Shown: in pieces, positions 8,446 through 10,527 of the stretch | How positions within the stretch are numbered: the first letter of the stretch is position 1 | Layout of the letters: the number at the start of each line of letters is the position of its first letter | Origin: Rhizobium sp. FKL33 | GTDB taxonomy: Bacteria > Pseudomonadota > Alphaproteobacteria > Rhizobiales > Rhizobiaceae | Length of the DNA: 64,000 bases | Direction: 5' to 3' | Assembly: GCF_005222915.1 (NCBI RefSeq) | Contig: NZ_STFX01000015.1 | Location: forward strand, 1-64,000 | Notes under the pieces: generated by a model | Database searches by the model: none | Told to the model about the DNA's origin: nothing | What the model saw: the letters and a program-made list of their open reading frames with translations, nothing else | Program-made: the position numbers and the translations under genes

Positions 8446-8880
8446 ATGGCGACCCAGCCGGTCATTCTGGTCGCGCCGGTGTTTTCGACGCTCGCCAATC
8501 TGGGCTTCCAGTTGCGCCGGACTGTGTTCGTGCTCGAGCAGAAAGTGCCGGCCGAGGAAGAGGTCGACGCAGACGATCTCACGGCGATCCATATGGTGGC
8601 GCTGATGGAGGGCGAAGTCGCGGGCGTGCTCCGCATCGTGCGCCGACCTGAACATCTGAAGATCGGTCGCGTGGCGGTCGACAGCGCCTTTCGCGGCCGC
8701 GGCATTGCCGGGGCGATGATGAGCCGGGTGCTGGAGGACTATTCGGGTGAAGTCGGCGGCCGGTTCTTCCTGACTGCCCAGACCGACAAGGTCGGTCTCT
8801 ACGAGCGCTTCGGCTTCAAGGTCTTCGGTCAGGAATTCATGGATGCGGGCATTCCGCATCTCGCCATGAAGACCTATTAG
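8446..8880 (+). CDS. GNAT family N-acetyltransferase
   Basis: 144 residues. The acetyl-CoA motif A is clear: IGRVAVDSAFRGRGIAGAMM (RGRGIA pyrophosphate loop). It is followed by FFLTAQTDKVGLYERFGFKVFG, the usual ElaA/YjcF-like C-terminal half. The acceptor substrate is unknown. It has a good ribosome binding site (gaggg) before ATG 8446 and follows the PilZ-like gene closely. The stop codon sits at the very edge of the inverted-repeat element that follows, so the element's outermost bases (ttagag) include the stop codon. Confidence 0.88.
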   Translation: MATQPVILVAPVFSTLANLGFQLRRTVFVLEQKVPAEEEVDADDLTAIHMVALMEGEVAGVLRIVRRPEHLKIGRVAVDSAFRGRGIAGAMMSRVLEDYSGEVGGRFFLTAQTDKVGLYERFGFKVFGQEFMDAGIPHLAMKTY

Positions 8881-8882
8881 AG

Positions 8883-9134
8883 TCTCAGCTTATCCGCCTC
8901 ATTCTGTTGGTCCAAACCGGGATGATCCGCAAGGAGAAGGGCGCAGGTCGTAGCTGATGCTACGGCCAAGCTCTTCGACGACGCGGGCGCCCGGTTTCGA
9001 CCAACCCTTCGGGCCGGATGAATTTCGGCCATTATCTTCGGCTTTTGGCTCCGCCGTACATCTGGGTACGCCCTCGCCAAAAGCCTTGATCCTGACCGAA
9101 ATTGATCCGGCAGAATGAGGCGGATAAGCTGAGA
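8883..9134. repeat. Nested inverted-repeat element with 24-bp perfect ends
   Basis: The ends 8883-8906 and 9111-9134 are perfect 24-base inverted repeats. Beyond them ttagag is repeated on both sides (with 4 extra bases on the right), so the full element may be about 8877-9143. Inside are two further foldback arms. Arm one pairs 8907-8921 with 8990-9004 (14 of 15) and holds cgtagc-tgat-gctacg. Arm two pairs 9014-9049 with 9076-9110 imperfectly and holds a cgtac/gtacg tip. The whole could fold as a cloverleaf. No coding capacity. It resembles a miniature, non-autonomous transposable element or a rhizobial palindromic mosaic repeat. Confidence 0.75.
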
Positions 9135-9139
9135 TACGC

Positions 9140-9172
9140 TCTAAGAGAGCCGCCCGGCGGACCGGGCGGCTC
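9140..9172 (-). terminator. Terminator of the MFS transporter gene
   Basis: A 10-bp GC-rich stem (gagccgcccg 9147-9156 with cgggcggctc 9163-9172, 6-nt loop), read on the minus strand 9 bases after the MFS stop and followed by tctctta. It directly abuts the inverted-repeat element. Confidence 0.65.
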
Positions 9173-9180
9173 CTGAAACA

Positions 9181-10527
9181 TCACTTTTCGATGTCGATGT
9201 GCTGGGTTTCCTCGCCCAGGAACAGGGCGATCAGCGTCAGACCCGCCATGACGGTGAGATAGACGCCGACCCAGAACGGGCTGCCCTGGCCATAGCTCCA
9301 CAGCGCCACCGCGATGAACGGGGCGACAGCCGCGCCGAGGATCGAGGAGACGTTATAGGCGATGCCCGAGCCGGTGTAGCGCACATTGGCCGGGAACAAC
9401 TCCGGCAGAAGCGCGCCCATCGGGCCGAAGGTCATGCCCATCAGGCTGAAGCCGATCACCAGCCAGGCGAGTACGCCGACTTTGCCGAGCGACAGGAGCG
9501 GAACCCAGCTGAGGCCGAACACGGCGATCCCGAGCGTCACTGCGATCAGCATCTTGCGGCGACCGAACTTTTCCGCCCAGGGACCTGACAGGAAGGTGAA
9601 AATGCCGAAGAACACCACGCCGAAGATCAGCATCATCACGAAGCTGCGATAATCGTAACCGAGGCCGGGCACGGCGGCGTCGACGGGCTTGCTGCCGAAG
9701 CTGAGCGAGAAGGCGGTCATCAGGTAGAACAGCACATAGGTCGCCAGCATATAGAAGGTGCCGAGCACGATCTGCTTGCCATGGGTCTGGAAGGCGGCGG
9801 CGAGCGGCAGCTTGCGCACCTGGCCCGTCTTGACCGTCTTGGCGAAGGCGCTGCTTTCGACGAGGTTCAGGCGCACCCACAGGCCGACGATGACCATCAC
9901 GGCGGAGGCGAGGAAGGGAATGCGCCAACCCCAGCTCAGGAAGGCTTCGGACGGCATCGACGGATCCGACGACGGCAGAACCGCCGCGATCAGCAGGAAA
10001 AGCCCGTTGGCGAGAATGAAGCCGATCGGCGCGCCGAGCTGCGGGAAGGTGCCGAACACGGCGCGCTTGCCCTTGGGCGCGTTTTCGGTGGCGACCAGGG
10101 CTGCGCCCGACCATTCGCCGCCGAGCGCGAAGCCCTGCGCCATGCGCAATACGACGAGCAGCAGCGTCGCGAGCCAGCCGACGGACGGATAGGTCGGCAA
10201 GGCGCCGATCAGGAAGGTGGCGACGCCCATGGTCAGGAGCGCGCCCACCAGCGTCGCCTTGCGGCCGCGCTTGTCGCCGAGATGGCCGAAGAAGATCGCG
10301 CCGAGCGGCCGGGCGACCATGGCAGCGCCGAACACCGCAAAAGACGCCAGAAGCGCGGTGGTCGGATCGCCCTTCGGAAAGAACAGATGCGGGAACACCA
10401 GCACGGCGGCGGTGGCGTAGACATAGAAATCGTAGAATTCGATCGTGGTGCCGATCAGGCTCGCCAAAATCACTCGCGCGCGGCTGTTGGCCGGGGCGCC
10501 CGCCGATGCGGCGTCGTAGGAAGACAT
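9181..10527 (-). CDS. MFS transporter, metabolite:H+ symporter (proline/betaine/shikimate-type)
   Basis: 448 residues from ATG 10527, preceded by cggagtagtaaaatc; an open frame extends upstream but lacks a ribosome binding site. Twelve membrane segments. The opening LASLIGTTIEFYDFYVYATAA and the GHLGDKRGRKATLVGALLTMG loop-2 signature are typical of the MHS subfamily (ProP, ShiA, KgtP). Likely a proton symporter for a small organic acid or zwitterion in the inner membrane; the substrate is not identifiable. Divergent from the LacI-family gene; the shared 260-base region contains a LacI-type palindrome, so co-regulation is possible but not shown. Confidence 0.88.
   Translation of the reverse strand: MSSYDAASAGAPANSRARVILASLIGTTIEFYDFYVYATAAVLVFPHLFFPKGDPTTALLASFAVFGAAMVARPLGAIFFGHLGDKRGRKATLVGALLTMGVATFLIGALPTYPSVGWLATLLLVVLRMAQGFALGGEWSGAALVATENAPKGKRAVFGTFPQLGAPIGFILANGLFLLIAAVLPSSDPSMPSEAFLSWGWRIPFLASAVMVIVGLWVRLNLVESSAFAKTVKTGQVRKLPLAAAFQTHGKQIVLGTFYMLATYVLFYLMTAFSLSFGSKPVDAAVPGLGYDYRSFVMMLIFGVVFFGIFTFLSGPWAEKFGRRKMLIAVTLGIAVFGLSWVPLLSLGKVGVLAWLVIGFSLMGMTFGPMGALLPELFPANVRYTGSGIAYNVSSILGAAVAPFIAVALWSYGQGSPFWVGVYLTVMAGLTLIALFLGEETQHIDIEK

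Follow-up and report, generated by a model that had tools for sequence, protein, structure and literature searches.

The window analysed here, a stretch of 64,000 nucleotides from Rhizobium sp. FKL33 (contig NZ_STFX01000015.1), carries a nested palindromic sequence between two convergent genes, which raises the question of what this sequence is and how it came to lie there. The original prediction had taken it for a foldback element without coding capacity, and had offered three guesses as to its nature: a non-autonomous miniature element mobilised in trans, an RNA structure or a protein-binding site. By comparison with other copies and with empty sites, the element was delimited to 266 bp in the window copy, with the following parts and neighbours.

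8446–8880, plus strand: GNAT acetyltransferase gene (Pfam PF13673, E 5.1e-18)
8878–9143, no strand assigned: whole foldback element, from TA to TA
8878–8905, plus strand: left arm of the outer stem, beginning TAGAG
8906–9005, plus strand: arm 1, a long imperfect hairpin with tip GTCGTAGCtgatGCTACGGCC (helices 3–7 of the consensus)
9006–9012, plus strand: linker between the arms, a small hairpin CCTTCGG
9013–9111, plus strand: arm 2, a long imperfect hairpin with tip CGTACatctggGTACG (helices 9–12 of the consensus)
9112–9143, plus strand: right arm of the outer stem, with final letters GCTCTA
9147–9172, no strand assigned: G+C-rich hairpin of the host locus, outside the element and present too in element-free relatives
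9181–10527, minus strand: MFS transporter gene, convergent with the GNAT gene, start not settled (Pfam matches on 9184–10527: PF00083, E 1.4e-29; PF07690, E 2.3e-24)

The perfect 24-bp inverted repeat (8883–8906 and 9111–9134) is present as described. The letters ttagag, thought to be repeated just outside it on both sides, read CTCTAA at the right end, which is the reverse complement and not a direct repeat; TTAGAG and CTCTAA are complementary and therefore belong to the inverted repeat. Between 8882 and 8883 other copies carry four nucleotides (of the type CGTR), which the window copy has lost. We found no long reading frame belonging to the element, as had been claimed, and the mechanical 89-aa frame at 9032–9301 (minus strand) overlaps its right part. 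The right end was said to abut a transcription terminator: the hairpin at 9147–9172 is indeed there, but a terminator scan gave no T-run match for it, and the sole terminator-like match of that scan (9012–9030) lies within the element.

The genome to which the window belongs (5.31 Mb, 60 contigs) holds four near-full copies at separate places, namely the window copy, two on contig C55 about 36 kb apart and one on C19 (100, 99, 98 and 95% identity), together with a 78-bp part, a 126-bp deleted form, a form of about 55 bp with the right end CTCTC, and fragments. We considered arm-to-arm copying for the 126-bp copy (L006), which when read on the other strand is an internal deletion. Distribution in the Rhizobiaceae is patchy: a search with the window copy finds matches in 9 of 61 genomes, its own included, while a copy from Rhizobium sp. 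NZLR1 matches 16 of 151 family genomes, with matches in 12 of 106 genera (five candidates were scored per genome in this search, and copy numbers are lower bounds). Among plasmid records, 5 match the window copy and 213 match a copy from S. medicae, 114 of these over at least 80% of its length; no phage record gave a match. A pattern search of named genomes (Rhizobium, Pararhizobium, Ensifer and Jiella) returned 33 stretches, 29 of which were delimited cleanly, two were short (L082, L093) and one ran off its locus (L098); the Jiella stretch (L088) has no element ends and was rejected. As expected of a miniature inverted-repeat transposable element (MITE), which is short and non-coding with terminal inverted repeats, 66 of the 72 delimited copies measure 269–276 bp. 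The remaining six measure 266 (window), 283 (twice), 356 (once) and 372 bp (twice), and the longer forms have two extra, larger hairpins at the linker (R. phaseoli, R. etli and G061). Among the ten annotated copies (window, L069, L070, L072, L193, L194 and L232–L235, with L233 and L235 possibly one site), seven sit between convergent genes, which is too few to test.

Instead of one copy at the same place in all relatives with poorly conserved arms, the outcome that the original prediction had named as telling against it, we thus found several copies at separate places, relatives with empty sites and, as described below, arms that remain paired. In three relatives (G001, G002 and G003) the window site is empty and reads TAT-TGA, against TAT-TAG followed by the element in the window. 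The left end of the element does overlap the stop codon of the GNAT gene, and in fact supplies it: TAG at 8878–8880, where the three element-free relatives read have TGA. The L004 site, too, has an empty counterpart in G003 (97% identity). In the relative, TA is missing from the junction of each of the own-genus sites L001, L002 and L004, and a TA duplication is not evident there.

The R. leguminosarum group is more informative about the target. The fucosidase site reads C[TAGAGCC...GGCTCTA]GCGCGGG when occupied, CTAGCGCGGG when empty in L238, CTAA in L237, and CTAG plus two extra bases in L236 (R. leguminosarum ATCC 14479), these two bases being possibly an excision trace. Three strains with an empty dienelactone-hydrolase site have TTAG, CTAG and TTAG there, one of them with an 8-nt deletion alongside, and the NZLR1 site reads CTAA in four relatives, in two of which the left flank aligns poorly (L159, L160). 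For these three sites TA is found at the junction in all ten relatives fetched, so that insertion in this group occurred at Y-TA-R with duplication of TA. More generally, a pyrimidine precedes TA at 102 of 108 element ends.

This target overlaps stop codons. Of 108 ends, 40 have at least 100 open codons upstream in the frame that reads the terminal TAG, against 12 and 16 in the other two frames. The TAG of the element ends an open frame, in phase, at 38 of the 108, compared with 123 of 784 YTAR sites elsewhere in the 33 named loci (Fisher p 8e-7). The excess can be explained by selection against insertions within genes, and copies in stop codons would persist because the TAG of the element restores the stop. 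This amounts to a mild mode of insertion, in which a target overlapping the stop codon has its stop replaced by that of the element. The element ends may also serve as landing sites for other sequences: an IS630-family sequence with other ends begins at the CTAG of the right end in S. medicae ml18 (L071), a sequence resembling the ends of an IS5/IS427-type locus (L184) begins at the same point in S. medicae WSM1115 (L156), and the IS5/IS427-type in G025 (L184) also adjoins ...acgctcTA.

A possible source of transposase was found in the IS630 family: IS630-type genes (PF13358) are present in six of seven carriers, and PF13340 in five. L161, in genome G004, is a 1047-bp IS630-family element bounded by TAGAGC...GCTCTA, and its protein matches the NCBIfam IS630 model above cut-off; L165, in the window's own genome (C57:22278-23351), is a 1074-bp IS630-family element with the same bounds and a broken frame. 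The L161 protein finds relatives in 71 of 151 genomes of the family and in 818 plasmid records. Among 30 further IS630 loci that were fetched, both ends were found in 15 (1000–1056 bp apart), one end in seven and none in one, with five not located by the end motif and two (L256, L257) set aside for odd spacing. C or T lies outside TA at all 41 IS630 ends read. The element has its ends, and the rule for the base outside them, in common with insertion sequences of about 1.05 kb from its own bacterial family.

The likeness extends beyond the six shared letters. The IS ends vary after TAGAGC, yet positions 7–13 agree between left and right (5.35 of 7 within an IS against 3.06 across IS; 17 IS with both ends). 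Over positions 7–28, 83 distinct arms of the element share 13.2 of 22 positions with the best-matching 5' IS end and 14.3 with the best-matching 3' end, against 8.7 in a shuffle control whose highest value in 200 shuffles was 9.2 (L048 and L065 were also left out here); an example is the element arm TAGAGCGTTTCCTGTTTAGATTGAAGCG (L062) beside the 3' IS end TAGAGCGTTTCACATTTTGATTGAAGCG (L274). For the window-type stem the match to IS ends is weak, at only 12–13 of 22. Carriage of the element was not significantly associated with an IS630 match at E ≤ 1e-20, which was present in 9 of 16 carriers and 62 of 135 non-carriers (Fisher p 0.60, the two 151-genome samples being taken as the same). A PF13340-type transposase locus in the window's own genome (L179, on C7) has a candidate TAGAGC/GCTCTA pair 1020 bp apart. 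Short palindromes of 40–61 bp with TAGAGC...GCTCTA ends and unrelated stems were seen in carriers and non-carriers alike (for example G010:C23:7155-7215); the pattern TAGAGCN{28,58}GCTCTA occurs in 17 of 18 genomes, non-carriers included, and shows no enrichment over a reversed-pattern control, which gives far more matches.

We propose, with a probability of roughly 0.87, that the element is a non-autonomous DNA element of the MITE type moved in trans by IS630-family transposases. These enzymes would read the ends TAGAGC...GCTCTA and insert the element at Y-TA-R, duplicating TA as at the R. leguminosarum-group sites; that the element has moved in this manner is deduced from the sequences compared. 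Of the three guesses of the original prediction, the trans-mobilised miniature element fits best, because the copies are dispersed, empty sites exist, TA is duplicated at three R. leguminosarum-group sites, and an IS630-type insertion sequence of the host group has the same ends, a likeness which is weak for the stem type of the window. The shared ends link a rhizobial foldback family to a common type of insertion sequence, and a transposition test is possible at once.

The two inner arms with their tips, also foreseen, are predicted on either strand, closed by the outer stem. The RNA fold of the plus strand reaches −162.4 kcal/mol, against −91.9 ± 5.4 in 200 shuffles (z −13.0), and the DNA fold of the minus strand gives z −11.9; in neither case did any of the 200 shuffles fold as well, so that the element folds far better than shuffled sequence on both strands. 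We aligned 39 copies, leaving out L044, which lies at the end of a contig, L050, whose right end is degenerate, L054, which was not delimited, L088, which is no element, L098, which its locus end truncates, L082, which was delimited short, and near-duplicates separated by fewer than 8 differences; L093, delimited short, was retained, and the omission of L050 favours pairing slightly. RNAalifold gave 82 pairs, 51 of which have changed on both sides. Standard pairs fill 96.2% of the 3173 pair cells, compared with 80.1% after shuffling and 32–45% with partners slid, and the covariation score is 0.433, compared with 0.145 and 0.047–0.086, respectively; related sequences can exceed shuffles without any structure, whereas the slid control keeps relatedness. 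Both-side changes affect 19 of 25 pairs in the outermost helix, where 97.2% of cells are paired, and 8/11, 3/3, 0/1, 5/7 and 5/5 pairs in the helices of arm 1 and 3/6, 2/7, 3/5 and 2/5 in those of arm 2. All three arms have thus been kept paired by changes on both sides. Pairing of the inner arms, which were compared among element copies while the comparison with IS concerned the ends, is not accounted for by movement through IS630 transposases.

The outer stems differ among copies of one genome. In ten single-genome groups left and right differ by 0.076 on average within the same copy (40 copies), while pairs of copies from the same genome (82 pairs) differ by 0.238 in the stem and 0.090 in the core. 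The clearest group is G004 (left-right 0.070, stem 0.365, core 0.125), in which L148 and L064 have cores 96% equal and stems 50% equal, and L146 and L151 have cores 98% and stems 64% equal. Three of the ten groups are opposite, the left-right difference exceeding that between copies (R. oryzicola, 0.163 versus 0.150; R. lemnae, 0.163 versus 0.054; E. adhaerens Lc04, 0.062 versus 0.038), and two (G025 and R. herbae) show no difference. A general renewal of arms within copies, clear in G004 and absent in these three opposite groups, was accordingly rejected. The outer stems may differ because each copy tracks the ends of one or another IS630 lineage; IS ends vary likewise, left and right together. 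A serious, if less favoured, competitor keeps the same kind of element and attributes the unequal stems on equal cores of G004 mainly to ectopic gene conversion of the core or to template switching between arms. The L148/L064 pair speaks for it, as do the equal numbers of G-T and A-C cells in the outer stem and the fucosidase site of R. leguminosarum, which holds a three-arm form in one strain (L233) and a longer form in another (L242); against it, the IS630 ends vary with left and right matched and resemble the stems, which provides a source of changes from outside. The left end of L242 is without two bases.

It is also conceivable, though rather improbable, that the element represents a class of transposable elements selected for shape, in which an IS630-type transposase would read the short ends and propagation would also need a single-strand foldback with three arms. 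Inner and outer arms would then be preserved or replaced in matching pairs even as their sequence changes, and the 40–61 bp palindromes would be the simplest members. We consider this less likely because the diversity of IS630 ends is a plainer source for the outer stems. Inner arms that remain paired across genera, through changes on both sides and without strand preference, make it possible to ask directly if the shape of its DNA is important to a mobile element.

That the element is mainly a structured RNA, either a 3'-UTR or a small RNA, with pairing kept because the RNA is used, appears more doubtful still. The very strong fold and the compensatory changes would fit such a role, but the strand signal does not. 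An initial count of 94 G-T against 29 A-C cells on plus-strand pairs, suggestive of strand-specific selection, is unreliable because the pairs had been chosen on one strand, and the bias is gone once only pairs found in the predictions for both strands are used, where the cells number 19 G-T and 19 A-C in the outer stem, 25 and 17 in arm 1 and 18 and 42 in arm 2, with no consistent strand preference across the 39 copies. Only 11 of the 39 fold more stably as the plus strand, the element has no Rfam match at gathering score (three weak matches at 9130–9228, below cut-off, lie mostly in its right flank), and a scan of 8700–9300 found no promoter-like site. Strand bias thus lends no support to the RNA structure suggested originally.

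The small, palindromic and intergenic nature of the element might also suggest the REP/REPIN kind, mobilised by a RAYT (Y1 transposase); this is highly improbable, given that Y1_Tnp is found in none of seven carriers by a search positive in 5 of 14 control genomes, and that a duplication of TA is at odds with it. A palindrome between two genes could likewise be a fixed site of this locus for regulation or protein binding, but the empty sites rule this out, relatives having the gene pair without the element and copies lying at other places.

How does the element, read as an IS630-moved MITE, compare with known repeats? A literature search found no earlier description of the family, the original 1995 description of RIME being beyond its reach. 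RIME1 measures about 105–108 bp with two palindromes, and is shorter than the element, which is set apart from it by description, not by sequence. A 102-bp two-palindrome repeat, presumably RIME1-like, lies within arm 2 of an S. fredii copy (L192, CCBAU 25509), and is also common on its own, with 369 plasmid records and at least 2057 places. Extra linker hairpins in G075 (L207, L208) resemble this repeat, by eye only.

According to PMC2573895, intergenic repeats with a conserved secondary structure occur by the dozen in rhizobial genomes, RIME and the A-B and C palindromes of Sinorhizobium among them, which the element resembles in both respects; the family may therefore already have a name. 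The Bru-RS palindromes of Brucella, intergenic repeats of the same order, are given as 103–105 bp in PMC2267715, and here too the element is set apart by description, not by sequence. The Caulobacter intergenic repeats (CIR), also from alpha-proteobacteria, likewise have two long arms and a linker; in PMC2229807 they are about 110 bp long, with a conserved GANTC and no end-to-end stem, whereas the element is about 270 bp with a closing stem. Membership of CIR was rejected, as 29 of 72 copies are without GANTC and the sites total 56 against 73.7 in shuffles. In the bacterial repeats other than CIR described in that paper, end-to-end pairing gives a stem loop without arms. RUP, ERIC/IRU and Correia/NEMIS are, according to the same paper (PMC2229807), likewise small, non-coding MITEs with TA ends and target duplication, and RUP is proposed to be moved by IS630-Spn1, a parallel to the rhizobial IS630 that would move the element; unlike these three, it has three covarying arms and stems that differ among the copies of one genome. 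As an IS630-linked MITE the element is therefore of a known kind, comparable to RUP (PMC2229807), and its three covarying arms make it a variant of that kind.
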